Of a stretch of DNA of 22,119 bases, positions 258 to 9,086 are shown in pieces. The notes below the pieces were generated by a model. That model worked only from the letters and a program-made list of their open reading frames with translations. It ran no database searches and was not told the origin of the DNA. Made by a program: the position numbers and the translations under genes. Position 1 is the stretch's first letter; each line of letters begins with the position of its first letter. Source of the DNA: a virus; the IMG/VR virus record IMGVR_UViG_3300032081_000879, positions 1 to 22,119 of that record; one strand, 5' to 3'.

Positions 258-367
258 ACGCGCGGGTCCTTCCATACAAAGGATCCTACAGGGGTAATTC
301 GCACCCCGGTTTGTGGGCGTTTTTTGGGATTTGTGTGGTTCGAGAAGCGGTTGTTGTTGGAGTTGTC
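258..367 (+). other. Non-coding gap before terminase; hairpin and candidate cos region
   Basis: No convincing gene lies here. A short inverted repeat GGGGT (291-295) / ACCCC (303-307) encloses a 7-base loop and is followed 13 bases later by a run of six T (320-325). It could be a weak terminator for the gene to the left. Phages with a gpA-type large terminase generally cut at a cos site next to the small-terminase gene, so this gap is the natural place for cos. No known cos consensus is recognisable, and that part is inference. Confidence 0.3.
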
Positions 368-3207: not shown

Positions 3208-3428
3208 CAGGATACACTACAGAAGAGCTAGCAGAGATGCGGCTTGAGCTGACGGCGCTGCGATCAGCAGCTGCAAAAGGCATCACAAAGCTGCGCAATT
3301 CCGTCGGTGAGGAAATCACCTATAGGTCGCTGGAAGAGATGTATCGGCAGATCGCGAGAATGGAGCGGATCCTTGCCCCGCAGGCAACGGTGCGACAGCA
3401 CTACCCGACCTTTAGAAAAGGCACCTGA
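3204..3428 (+). CDS. gpW-like head-tail joining protein
   Basis: A 74-residue protein in the usual slot between terL and portal. In lambda, gpW (68 residues) seals the portal after packaging and prepares for tail attachment. The visible pattern is two charged helices around a hairpin: EELAEMRLELTALRSA, then GEEITYRSLEEMYRQIARMERIL. The central TYRSLEEM is typical of this family. The start is TTG at 3204, whose last two bases with the next A make the terL stop (TTGA overlap). GGGAG at 3191-3195 serves as ribosome binding site. The ORF in another frame across this region is only an upstream extension of the portal frame. Confidence 0.88.
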   Translation: MTGYTTEELAEMRLELTALRSAAAKGITKLRNSVGEEITYRSLEEMYRQIARMERILAPQATVRQHYPTFRKGT

Positions 3429-3432
3429 ATTC

Positions 3433-4950
3433 ATGAACCTGATTGACCGTGCTGTCGCGTTCGTTTCGCCCGAACGCGCCCTCAAGCGTGTGCGCGCACG
3501 CCAAGCCATCATGCATTATGATGCGGCCACAGTGGGCCAACGCGCATCTTCTTGGAAGGCCTCCAGCACGGATGCCGATGCGGCTGCAGGTCGCCGCGAT
3601 CGCATGGCGTATATCGCCCGTGACATGGTACGCAACACGCCCTTCGCGCTACGGGCACAGCAGGTCATTGCGAACAACGCGGTCGGCGACGGCATCATCC
3701 CGAAAGGGATCATTCCCAAGGGCGATAATGAGCCGGACGGCCTGCGCGAGATTCTGCTGAATATGATCGAGAACACATGCGACAGGACGATCATCGCGGC
3801 AGACGGACGTCAGAACCTCTACGGGCTGCAGCGGCTTGCCATGAATACGATCACCGATGCTGGCGAAGTGCTGATCCTGCGGGAATATGTCAACGATCCG
3901 CGCCCGGGTCAGTTCAGGCTCCGGTTGCGCGTTCTGGAGCCAGACTTTCTAGACAACTTGCGCGATGGCGTGCTGGCTGACGGTGGCAGTATCCACGACG
4001 GGATCGAATACAACGCGGATGGTCAGCGGGTGGCCTATCATCTGTTCGACCAGCATCCCGGTACGGACTGGTTCAAGGGTATCGGTTGGCGCAGCCGGTC
4101 GCGGCGTGTGCCCGCGAGCCGTGTGCTGCATATTTATCGGCAGGACCGCCCCGGCCAAAACCGTGGCGTTAGCTGGTTTGCCCCGATCGCCTTGGCGCTG
4201 CAGGATCTCGGCGACTATCAGGACGCGCAGATCATGCGACAGAAGATTGCTGCCTGCTTTGCCGCGTTTCACAAGCGCAGCGAAACGGTGGCAGACGGAG
4301 GCAACAGCGAGACAACATCCCTTGGCGGCTCGCTGAGCCCCGGCCTTATCCAAAGCATTGCATCCGATGAAGAGGTCACGTTTTCGGATCCGCCTGATGT
4401 CGCAGGATACGATACGTTCACGCGCACGGTTCTGCTTTCAATAGCTGGCGGCATGGGGATCACATACGAGGCGCTGGTGGGCGATCTTAGCAACGTCAAC
4501 TTTTCCTCTGCCCGCATGGGCCGGATGGAAATGGACCGCAATGTGTCCAGCTGGCAATGGCTGATGCTGATCCCCCAGATGATGCACCCGATCGGCGAGT
4601 GGCTGCTCGAGGAGTGGGCGTTGATGGATCCCGAGAATGGTCGCCGGATCAAGCAATGCAACCTGAATTGGGTGCCTCCTTACCGGATCCTTGTGGATCC
4701 CGCGCGTGAAATCGGCGCGCTGCGAGAAGCTGTTCGGGCAGGTTTTGCCAGCCGTCAGGGTGTTGTCCGGCAGTTGGGCAGCGATCCGGAACGCCTGATC
4801 GAAGAACAGCAAGCGGATGCCAAGGATGCTGACCTTCGAGGCCTTGTCTTCGACAGTGACGCTGCAGCGGTATCGCAATCCGGTGTCACCCAGACGCCAC
4901 CCCCAGCGGATGAGAAAACACCACAAAGGAACAACAACGATGGAAAATGA
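3433..4950 (+). CDS. Portal protein (lambda gpB family)
   Basis: Forms the dodecameric ring at one vertex of the capsid through which DNA enters and leaves. The frame is open from 3307, but the sequence before ATG 3433 is the antisense-like read of the gpW gene. Starting at 3433 (AAAGG upstream) gives 505 residues, close to lambda gpB (533). Characteristic stretches are VRNTPFALRAQQVIANNAVGDGI (residues ~67-88), the AGEVLILREY core strand, RVLHIYRQDRPGQNRGVSW and FSSARMGRMEMDR. Residues 88-97 carry a tiny internal duplication (IIPKG twice) at the loop where relatives have a single copy. The C-terminus is acidic and polar. The stop lies inside the next gene's start region (11-base overlap), so translation is coupled. 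Confidence 0.94.
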   Translation: MNLIDRAVAFVSPERALKRVRARQAIMHYDAATVGQRASSWKASSTDADAAAGRRDRMAYIARDMVRNTPFALRAQQVIANNAVGDGIIPKGIIPKGDNEPDGLREILLNMIENTCDRTIIAADGRQNLYGLQRLAMNTITDAGEVLILREYVNDPRPGQFRLRLRVLEPDFLDNLRDGVLADGGSIHDGIEYNADGQRVAYHLFDQHPGTDWFKGIGWRSRSRRVPASRVLHIYRQDRPGQNRGVSWFAPIALALQDLGDYQDAQIMRQKIAACFAAFHKRSETVADGGNSETTSLGGSLSPGLIQSIASDEEVTFSDPPDVAGYDTFTRTVLLSIAGGMGITYEALVGDLSNVNFSSARMGRMEMDRNVSSWQWLMLIPQMMHPIGEWLLEEWALMDPENGRRIKQCNLNWVPPYRILVDPAREIGALREAVRAGFASRQGVVRQLGSDPERLIEEQQADAKDADLRGLVFDSDAAAVSQSGVTQTPPPADEKTPQRNNNDGK

Positions 4951-7057
4951 ACTGTACCTCTACGGCACCGTCGGTGGCGGGTTCTGGGATGAGGACTTCT
5001 TTACGCCGAACACGGTGCGCGATGAGCTGGAAGGGCTCAGCGGCCCGCTGACCGTCCGGATCAACTCGGGCGGCGGTATCGCGTCGGACGGGCAGGCGAT
5101 CTACACGATGCTGCGCGACTATCCCGACGTCGTCTCGGTCATCATCGACGGTATTGCCGCAAGCGCTGCCAGTCTAATCGCCATGGCCGGTGACACGATC
5201 ACCATGCGCTTGGGGTCCACCATGATGATCCATGATCCGGCGAACCCTTGGGTCGACGGGCGCGGCACCGAAGAGGACCACCTGAACGCGGCGAAAGGTT
5301 TGAGTGTAATCGGCAAAGCCTATGCCGCGGTCTATGCCAAGAAGGCAGGCATCTCTGTGGACGATGCTCGGGCGATCATGCGCGTCGAGACCTATTATGA
5401 CGGCGATGGGGCAGTCGATGCCGGATTTGCCACTGCCGTCGATGACGACATTGAGGCCGAAGCCGTGGCGCGGTTCGATTACCGCGTCTATGCGCACGCC
5501 CCCGAAGATCTGCGCAACGCTGGAGGGGAGTTTACCACCCAGAAAAGCAGAAAGGCCGTCATGGCCCTGATGGCCGGTTCTGCCGTGCCCCAACCCAAGG
5601 AGAAGAAGATGGCAAAGCGCCCCGCGAAGAAGTCCCAGCGTTCGACCATGAAGGATCAGACCGATCCGGAAGCGATCGGCGACGAAGAGGAAATGTCCGA
5701 AGAAGAGCAGATGCTCGAGGAGGACGGCACCGAAGAGGATTCCACGGAAGAGGAAACCGATGGTGAGGAAGAGGAGGATGGCGGCGAAGAAGTTGACGAC
5801 GACGAAGCATCCGCCAATCCGGTAGCAGCCCAGATCCGCGATATCTGCGCTGCTTCGAACCGTCCAGAAGCTGAGGCGCTGGACATGATCGTGCGAGGCC
5901 TGACGCTGAACCAGGCTGTCGCCGAAATCACCACAAACCGGGCGAAGGAGAACCCCGTGAGCGGAAAACGCAACGGTGCACCGCGCACCACAATCATGCG
6001 CGATGAGCGCACCACCCGCCGTACCGGTATGGCCCAAGCGATCACTGCGCAGATCATGGGGACCAACCCTGCCAGTTCAATGGCGCGGCCCTTCATGGAC
6101 CTGACGCTTGTAGAGATGGCGGCTGACTGCATCGGACACAAAGGCCCACTGCGCAATGCCGGTCAGCGCACGCAGGTGTTTATGGATGCGGCGCATTCAA
6201 CTTCGGACTTCCCAGGCATCTTTGAGAACGCATTGAACAAGGTTTTGCTGGAACGCTACCAGCTGGCAGAGCCGACATATCGCCAGATCGCACGCAAACG
6301 CAACTTCACCGATTTCCGTGTGCACCCGATGGTGCGGGCTGGGGACTTCCCCAAACTTCAGCCGATCGGCGAGAATGGTGAGATCAAGTTTGGCACCTTC
6401 GGCGAAGCTCGCGAAACAGCGATCCTTGCCCCTTACGGCGTCGGTCTGCGCATCAGCCGTCAAATGATGATCAACGATGAACTGGGCGCGATTGACGAAG
6501 TGCTGTCGGATTACGGTCAATCAGTTGCGGATTTCGAGGAAGAGACGTTCTATGCCTTCGCTCTGAGCAGCGCCAAGCTATCGGATGGCAAAGCTGTCTT
6601 TCACGCTGACCACAACAACTTGGCCGGTGCGGGCGCGGCGATCAACGTGACGACCGTGTCCGCTGGACGTGCGGCAATTCGCAAGCAACAAAGCATCGAC
6701 AAGAAAAAGCTGAATATGACAGCGTCGATTATCCTAGTTGGTCCGAACAAGGAAACCGAAGCAGAGCAGCTGGTCGCAGCGATCCAGCCTCAGGAAGCTG
6801 GCAACGTCAACCCGTTCTCGGGTCGTCTTGATCCGGTCGTGACTGCGCAGATCGAGGACAACAGCTGGTATCTGCTGGCAGGTTCCGAACGCCCAGGCGG
6901 TGCACTTTGGACTTATGGCTATCTCGATGGTGCGGAAGCGCCACGAGTGCGGACCGAAGAGGCTTTTGGTCAGCAAGGCATGTCGATGTCCGTCGAGCAT
7001 GACTTCGGCTTGGGCGCAATCGACTATCGCGGCGGTTGGAAAAACCCAGGCGCATAA
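4940..7057 (+). CDS. ClpP-like prohead protease - scaffold - major capsid fusion
   Basis: A single 705-residue ORF carries three virion-assembly functions. Residues 1-~200 are a ClpP/S14-type serine protease: NSGGGIASDG, the nucleophile motif GIAASAAS (Ser75) and MMIHDP (His98). The third catalytic residue is not clear. Residues ~224-295 are a Lys-rich start followed by a very acidic Glu/Asp run, suited to a scaffold. Residues ~340-705 are a Mu gpT-like major capsid domain: FHADHNNLAGAGAAI, ILVGPNKETEAEQL and a C-terminus ending in DYRGGW. Such fusions are known in databases as prohead protease/major capsid fusion proteins. The start is ATG 4940 with AAGGA at 4926-4930; upstream in-frame codons overlap portal. 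Protease cleavage near the capsid domain would release mature capsid protein. Two internal start sites are listed separately. Confidence 0.93.
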   Translation: MENELYLYGTVGGGFWDEDFFTPNTVRDELEGLSGPLTVRINSGGGIASDGQAIYTMLRDYPDVVSVIIDGIAASAASLIAMAGDTITMRLGSTMMIHDPANPWVDGRGTEEDHLNAAKGLSVIGKAYAAVYAKKAGISVDDARAIMRVETYYDGDGAVDAGFATAVDDDIEAEAVARFDYRVYAHAPEDLRNAGGEFTTQKSRKAVMALMAGSAVPQPKEKKMAKRPAKKSQRSTMKDQTDPEAIGDEEEMSEEEQMLEEDGTEEDSTEEETDGEEEEDGGEEVDDDEASANPVAAQIRDICAASNRPEAEALDMIVRGLTLNQAVAEITTNRAKENPVSGKRNGAPRTTIMRDERTTRRTGMAQAITAQIMGTNPASSMARPFMDLTLVEMAADCIGHKGPLRNAGQRTQVFMDAAHSTSDFPGIFENALNKVLLERYQLAEPTYRQIARKRNFTDFRVHPMVRAGDFPKLQPIGENGEIKFGTFGEARETAILAPYGVGLRISRQMMINDELGAIDEVLSDYGQSVADFEEETFYAFALSSAKLSDGKAVFHADHNNLAGAGAAINVTTVSAGRAAIRKQQSIDKKKLNMTASIILVGPNKETEAEQLVAAIQPQEAGNVNPFSGRLDPVVTAQIEDNSWYLLAGSERPGGALWTYGYLDGAEAPRVRTEEAFGQQGMSMSVEHDFGLGAIDYRGGWKNPGA
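5597..5611 (+). promoter_or_regulatory. Internal ribosome binding site and in-frame ATG before the scaffold domain
   Basis: AAGGAG (5597-5602), six spacer bases, then an in-frame ATG at 5609 (residue 224 of the fusion). It stands exactly where the protease domain ends and the acidic scaffold begins. Initiation here would give a 482-residue scaffold-capsid protein without protease, much as lambda Nu3 starts inside gene C. The hexamer also encodes Lys-Glu, so chance is possible. Confidence 0.5.
5945..5959 (+). promoter_or_regulatory. Internal ribosome binding site and in-frame GTG before the capsid domain
   Basis: AAGGAG (5945-5950), six spacer bases, then an in-frame GTG at 5957 (residue 340). 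Initiation here would give a 366-residue protein, close to the size of free major capsid proteins such as lambda gpE (341). The spacing equals that of the site at 5597. As there, AAG GAG is also an ordinary Lys-Glu pair. Confidence 0.42.
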
Positions 7058-7124: not shown

Positions 7125-7152
7125 CAATCCTGAAACGTGAATGGAAATCGAC

Positions 7153-7497
7153 ATGAAGAACTTTATCCAACCCGGTAAGATGATCGGGATCCTCGCTGCA
7201 GCCGATACGCTGAGCGGCGCTGGCGTTAAAGCCGGTGTGTTGTTCGGTATCGCCGCGCATGATGCTCTTTCCGGCGAACCGCTCGAGATCGCCGTCGATG
7301 GCGTCTTTGAACTGCCAAAGGCAACTGGCACCGCCTGGACCGTGGGCGCAGCGATTTACTGGAACGGCACCGCCTGCACTGTGGCAGCAACAGCTGGCAA
7401 CCTGCTGATCGGCTGCGCGGTGATTGCTGCTGCCAGTGGCGATGGGGTGGGCACCGTCCGCCTGAACGGCGCTGCGCCGGCTGCTGTCACCGCGTGA
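7153..7497 (+). CDS. DUF2190-type capsid decoration protein
   Basis: Probably the small protein that binds the outside of the expanded capsid and stabilises it, the role of gpD in lambda. The ORF is open from ATG 7141, but family members typically begin MKNFIQPG, which points to ATG 7153 (114 residues, GGA a few bases upstream). The sequence is Ala/Gly/Val-rich and all beta: LSGAGVKAGVLFGIAAHDALSGEPLEIAVDGVFELPKA, then GAAIYWNGTACTVAA and GTVRLNGA at the end. This pattern, including the 'vDGVfeLpK' and 'YW' strands, is characteristic of DUF2190 proteins encoded just after major capsid genes. Its stop overlaps the next start (GTGA). Confidence 0.85.
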   Translation: MKNFIQPGKMIGILAAADTLSGAGVKAGVLFGIAAHDALSGEPLEIAVDGVFELPKATGTAWTVGAAIYWNGTACTVAATAGNLLIGCAVIAAASGDGVGTVRLNGAAPAAVTA

Positions 7498-8732: not shown

Positions 8733-9086
8733 ATGGGCAATAAAATTATGGGTGAAATCACCGTTTCGGTTGGTGGCAAGGACTGGATCCTCGTTTGCGA
8801 CTTCAACGCCCTCGCGGATTACGAGGATCGCACTGGCGAGAAAGCGTTCGATTTGATTGCCGAGATGGATAGTCCGGCCCCGTCCGTGTCCAAAATGCGT
8901 CAGCTGATGCTGTCGTCCCTGTTGGACCGCCACCCAGATGCGACGTTGCGTGATGCCGGTCGGGTGATGTCGGAAGACCAAGATGCGCTGGCGCGTGCCT
9001 TTGATGCGGCATTTCCCGAACCTGATGCGCAGGAGGCGGATGTCCCCGAGGCAGAGCCGGGGGAAGGGACAGCAGCGCAGGCCTAG
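8733..9086 (+). CDS. Tail assembly chaperone (gpG-like)
   Basis: A 117-residue protein that likely coats the tape measure during tail assembly. It follows the tube gene by three bases. The pattern is a short beta start (GEITVSVGGKDWILVCDFNALADYED), helices (SVSKMRQLMLSSLLDRH, EDQDALARAFDAAF), and an acidic, Ala/Glu/Pro-rich C-terminal tail that ends at TAG 9084-9086. In other tailed phages the equivalent gene is followed by a second ORF joined by a programmed -1 frameshift. Here the second ORF is in the -1 frame, as expected. An in-frame ATG at 8748 is an alternative start. Neither start has a strong ribosome binding site, suggesting coupling to the tube gene. Confidence 0.8.
   Translation: MGNKIMGEITVSVGGKDWILVCDFNALADYEDRTGEKAFDLIAEMDSPAPSVSKMRQLMLSSLLDRHPDATLRDAGRVMSEDQDALARAFDAAFPEPDAQEADVPEAEPGEGTAAQA
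9059..9065 (+). other. Candidate -1 ribosomal frameshift site
   Basis: A G-run (GGGGGAA, codons GGG GAA in the first frame) lies 19 bases before the first ORF's stop. Peptidyl-tRNA-Gly can slip from GGG to the preceding GGG without loss of pairing. The following GAA codon would not re-pair, so this is not a canonical X XXY YYZ heptamer (lambda uses G GGA AAG). It is the best candidate visible; the exact shift point is not proved. Confidence 0.4.

Follow-up and report, generated by a model that had tools for sequence, protein, structure and literature searches.

Conserved internal start signals in a phage gene for a protease-scaffold-capsid fusion protein

The gene at positions 4940-7057 (+ strand) of a 22,119-base IMG/VR virus contig, referred to in its full length as the window, is a single ORF of 705 aa plus a stop codon. 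It encodes a fusion of protease, scaffold and major capsid protein (MCP). Two additional start codons, each with its own Shine-Dalgarno (SD) sequence, lie in frame within this ORF, and comparison of homologs shows both start signals to be under selection at the nucleotide level. The preferred explanation, held at a probability of about 0.8, is that three in-frame starts are read from the one gene. There is a reasonable, though less firm, case for a wider proposal: that three nested proteins of the same frame, from three start signals, would set the ratio of protease, scaffold and capsid in the prohead, with the first internal start (site 1) general in fusions of two unrelated protease families.

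The fusion gene and its genomic context

The gene lies within a lambda-like head module, in the order small and large terminase, gpW-like adaptor, portal, fusion gene, cement protein and head-tail attachment. The lambda-family portal gene (3307-4950, + strand) is located just upstream and the head decoration (cement) gene (7141-7497, + strand) just downstream. The stretch 8733-9086 weakly matches the GTA-gp10 tail family, a hint that the tail may be related to those of gene transfer agents. Four other genomes (L099, L100, L102 and L103, from Vibrio, Pseudoalteromonas and Shewanella phages) encode a GroES-like co-chaperonin a few genes further downstream than the fusion gene. In the window, the SD AAGGA (4926-4930, + strand) precedes the full-length start at 4940 with a 9-nt spacer. 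A longer in-frame ORF from the ATG at 4817 was disfavoured, as both this SD and the homologs support the ATG at 4940.

The protein matches CLP_protease, Phage_capsid_4, NF045542, phrog_4523 and phrog_133. At its N-terminal end, residues 4-166 (4949-5437, + strand) form a head maturation protease domain of the ClpP type (S14), recognised by a score of 131.3 bits against NF045542 (ClpP-related head maturation protease, cut-off 120) and by Foldseek, where ClpP accounts for all 50 matches listed. S75, H98 and E150 (5162-5164, 5231-5233 and 5387-5389) do not vary among the 35 homologs; judged by motif, Glu may fill the role of catalytic acid that Asp has in ClpP. The major capsid domain (residues 397-702; 6128-7045, + strand) was identified through its Pfam match to Phage_capsid_4 (E 8e-49; 167.6 bits against a cut-off of 27).

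The segment between them, residues 224-339 (5609-5956, + strand), is scaffold- or Delta-domain-like. An AlphaFold2 model, built from 32 family members with rows from named records left out, has a mean pLDDT of 79; the protease, the scaffold helix (294-337) and the capsid parts are confident, and residues 217-292 and 339-352 are of low confidence. In this model the segment comprises a disordered acidic stretch plus helices at 294-337 and is set apart by linkers. It fits the HK97-type scaffold domain, at roughly 100 aa and N-terminal to the capsid domain, and is regarded as a putative scaffold. The domain borders proposed in the initial annotation agree with the model, and both putative internal starts are at the near edge of the disordered inter-domain linkers (217-292 and 339-352).

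The closest PHROG families of the fusion protein are phrog_4523 (E 1e-126) and phrog_133. It scores below the cut-offs of the NCBIfam fusion families (411.8 versus 525 bits for NF045541; 351.2 versus 475 bits for NF045540), and by these scores it is a related fusion outside the exact subfamilies. The three-domain arrangement itself is shared with known ClpP-like prohead protease/MCP fusions (NF045540, NF045541, phrog_133, phrog_4523 and gp5 of Pseudomonas phage MD8). The authors of the MD8 study identified all three parts, protease, scaffold and MCP, within a single gene, and the accessible part of their account of gp5 does not describe internal starts (PMC8508860). A three-in-one gene is also known from the RcC phages of R. 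capsulatus (PMC8601537).

Two internal start signals

Site 1 consists of the SD AAGGAG (5597-5602, + strand), a 6-nt spacer (5603-5608) and an ATG at residue 224 (5609-5611, + strand), and its predicted product is a scaffold-MCP chain of 482 aa (5609-7057). Site 2 consists of the SD AAGGAG (5945-5950, + strand), a 6-nt spacer (5951-5956) and a GTG at residue 340 (5957-5959, + strand), with a predicted capsid-only product of 366 aa (5957-7057). Both are in frame with the 4940-7057 ORF. The initial annotation had reported this ORF and the two SD-start pairs, and its coordinates were all confirmed. Its description of the starts as evenly spaced is true of the distance from SD to start, which is 6 nt in each case, and not of their positions within the gene.

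The main genes of the window contain 378 internal in-frame ATG, GTG or TTG codons, with an SD match of at least five bases in 11 and of at least six in 6. The case for non-random SD-starts from the window is thus modest and insufficient by itself; the proof is supplied by the homologs.

Conservation across S14-family homologs

The homolog set, drawn from IMG/VR, phage records and one bacterial genome, comprised 35 full-length, non-redundant members of less than 90% identity, including that of the window, with a median pairwise identity of 47%. Each in-frame internal ATG, GTG or TTG was scored for an exact match of at least four bases to TAAGGAGGTG at a workable spacing and placed on the protein alignment. 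Exact anti-SD matches replaced a free-energy ranking of SDs, which was dropped for its many spurious GU-rich matches.

A start codon is present at residue 224 in all 35 homologs, and start plus SD (at least four bases) in 34. Met224 is invariant in all 35 in alignment A3 and absent from the A4 list, so SD plus start is claimed for 34/35. The sole homolog lacking the site 1 SD (L034, 2252-4318, and likewise L035) is also missing site 2. Around residue 340, an SD-start of at least four bases occurs in 27/35 within a 13-residue window and in 28/35 within the wider window 331-345; 7 of the 35 have no SD at site 2. With at least five SD bases, the counts are 27/35 for site 1 and 18-19/35 for site 2, against no more than 8/35 anywhere else in the gene. 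Along the full length of the gene the two sites stand out clearly from every other position, over a background of about 2.6% of internal starts away from both (42/1598).

On a capsid-domain tree, in which L068 was disregarded owing to its wrong frame, site 1 was lost once. The presence of site 2 takes six changes with scattered losses, and this site appears ancestral.

Selection at the nucleotide level

Synonymous resampling, with codons drawn from the usage of each gene over 2000 runs, gave an expectation of 13.9±1.9 homologs with at least five SD bases at site 1. The observed number is 27; the maximum was 19 and none of the 2000 runs reached the observed value. For any SD-start in the residue range of site 2, 19 were observed against 10.6±2.0 expected (0/2000), and the valine at this column is encoded by GTG in 9/9 cases where 3.8 are expected. 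The site 1 SD is spelled as AAG GAG, AAA GGA, GGA GGA or CAA AGG AGC, in codon phases that switched about 10 times over the tree, and the amino acids beneath it vary between Lys-Glu, Lys-Gly, Gly-Gly, Gln-Arg-Ser and Asn-Gly-Gly. Since the amino acids themselves change while the SD persists, the synonymous test is conservative. In a thinned set of 19 homologs of less than 60% identity, site 1 is still clear (13 versus 5.6±1.4). Site 2 is weaker there (8 versus 5.2 for at least five SD bases, fraction 0.07; fraction 0.0085 for at least four), so that selection on it in this set is suggestive. The initial annotation had proposed asking, by alignment of homologs, whether the SD-start pairs are kept beyond the need to encode Lys-Glu; site 1 passes this test very strongly and site 2 passes it well.

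These results bear on the possibility that there is no internal initiation, with one polyprotein matured by its own protease and AAGGAG merely encoding Lys-Glu in charged linkers. In its favour, the protease domain is intact, precursors of this kind are processed by head proteases, and Lys and Glu abound in the linkers. Nevertheless, the SD is kept despite differing amino acids and codon phases, synonymous choice favours it, the start codon is nearly invariant inside an otherwise unconserved linker, and relatives with split genes begin a gene at the same position. At site 1 this alternative is largely refuted by the comparisons, and overall it is highly improbable. Conservation of Lys-Glu at the protein level as the cause was ruled out by the phase changes together with the synonymous tests. 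Also considered was a motif for protease cleavage at the domain borders; it is unsupported, since the border residues vary.

Split relatives and other fusion lineages

In L052, L058, L076 and Faecalibacterium phage FP_Epona (L110), scaffold and MCP share a gene that comes after a separate gene for an S78-type protease; for the first three of these, the S78 match is weak. In the alignment, the start codon of the split scaffold-MCP gene falls opposite residue 224 of the fusion protein, in column 1, and site 1 is therefore positionally homologous to a real gene start. The SD before this start is AAGGAG in L052 and AAGGA in L058. These relatives suggest a route by which fusions can originate: the in-frame joining of an upstream protease gene, with retention of the start signal belonging to the capsid gene.

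An SD-start at the protease/scaffold border is also found in other fusions. Among the S78-protease fusions related to Stenotrophomonas phage S1 it occurs in 43 of 51 non-redundant members (12 at the next-best place); with at least five SD bases the count is 23 versus a synonymous expectation of 15.9±2.4 and a maximum of 24, a moderate excess. All 28 lambdoid S14 fusions related to JBD68 contain it, compared with 12 at the next-best place and a synonymous expectation of 13.2±2.4. Apart from single cases, site 2 is mostly absent from these two sets and, by this comparison, mostly limited to the S14 family of the window. One such case is an 866-aa S78-protease fusion (L063, 2220-4820) with a site 2-like AAGGAG, 6-nt spacer and GTG located 101 residues before the TSDF motif, from which site 2 may exist outside the S14 lineage.

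In another genome (L070, 993-4577), a single frame of 1195 aa apparently joins the large terminase subunit, a partial S78 protease, the scaffold and the MCP, and the portal is missing; this is probably a prophage that has undergone deletion. It still has the SD-start of site 1 (AAGGAGG, with the ATG at residue 735).

Comparison with known systems

The initial annotation drew a parallel with C/Nu3 of lambda. The likeness lies in an in-frame SD-start inside a protease gene, a shared C-terminus and the same place in the head gene order. However, the short product of lambda is scaffold only, its capsid protein E is encoded by a separate gene, C is an S49 peptidase, and there is one internal start rather than two. 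The window gene would thus work like C/Nu3 without being a member of that system, as the predicted site 1 product runs on through the MCP; the parallel is apt in this sense, with the middle product being a scaffold-MCP fusion like HK97 gp5 and not a free scaffold. The same scan applied to lambda (L097, NC_001416) found a single strong SD-ATG in gene C, an AGGAGG-ATG at codon 309. This is 70 codons further downstream than the RefSeq nu3 annotation at codon 239. Later work reportedly moved the Nu3 start to about the methionine at codon 309.

Herpesvirus UL26/UL26.5 also gives nested 3'-coterminal protease-scaffold and scaffold products, similar to the nesting in the fusion gene. It differs in its use of separate transcripts, its eukaryotic setting and the exclusion of the capsid protein.

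In its order of scaffold then capsid, the predicted site 1 product matches HK97 gp5, with a scaffold of 116 aa compared with 102 in HK97, whereas the protease and MCP of HK97 are encoded by separate genes (gp4/gp5). Proheads of HK97 and D3 contain approximately 60-90 proteases, and that of HK97 contains 415 capsid proteins (PMC12749128).

Proposed mechanism and amounts

Ribosome use of both sites, the amounts of the products and their roles in assembly are inferred. Initiation at 4940 would yield the full 705-aa protease-scaffold-MCP chain, the scaffold-MCP part of which would carry the protease into the prohead. The start at 5609 would yield the 482-aa chain of scaffold and MCP, which corresponds to HK97 gp5 and is probably the unit from which most of the shell is built. 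From 5957, a 366-aa capsid-only chain would be made, diluting scaffold relative to capsid inside the shell. Site 1 is very probably functional and site 2 probably so.

Alternatively, site 1 may be the only internal start in use, giving the full-length fusion and scaffold-MCP, with site 2 a relic or weak start of no role and scaffold-free capsid arising solely by protease cleavage. The absence of site 2 from 7/35 homologs and from most S78 and lambdoid fusions is consistent with this, as is the ability of the scaffold-MCP chain alone to build the HK97 shell (PMC12749128). It is nonetheless unlikely, given the excess of site 2 SD-starts over synonymous expectation, the exclusive use of GTG for valine there and the scattered losses of a site that looks ancestral.

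Three products in rising amounts had been proposed in the initial annotation. A crude initiation estimate, of a kind that gives no reliable ranking of starts, does not place site 2 above site 1; its start codon is weaker (GTG) and the region is fairly structured. The claim of rising amounts is unsupported because the score does not rank site 2 higher.

Significance

Both the fusion proteins and internal initiation in lambda C/Nu3 are known already. Their combination appears new: a literature search, with subscription journals largely outside its reach, found no report of internal starts in protease-capsid fusions. Such fusions are common in phage databases, where each is annotated as a single protein. 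Should every one of them also yield a scaffold-capsid chain, and here a capsid-only chain, this annotation misses the real main capsid precursor. If true, three-start reading of the gene would resolve the stoichiometry puzzle posed by the fusion, as the protease need not be made as abundantly as the capsid protein.
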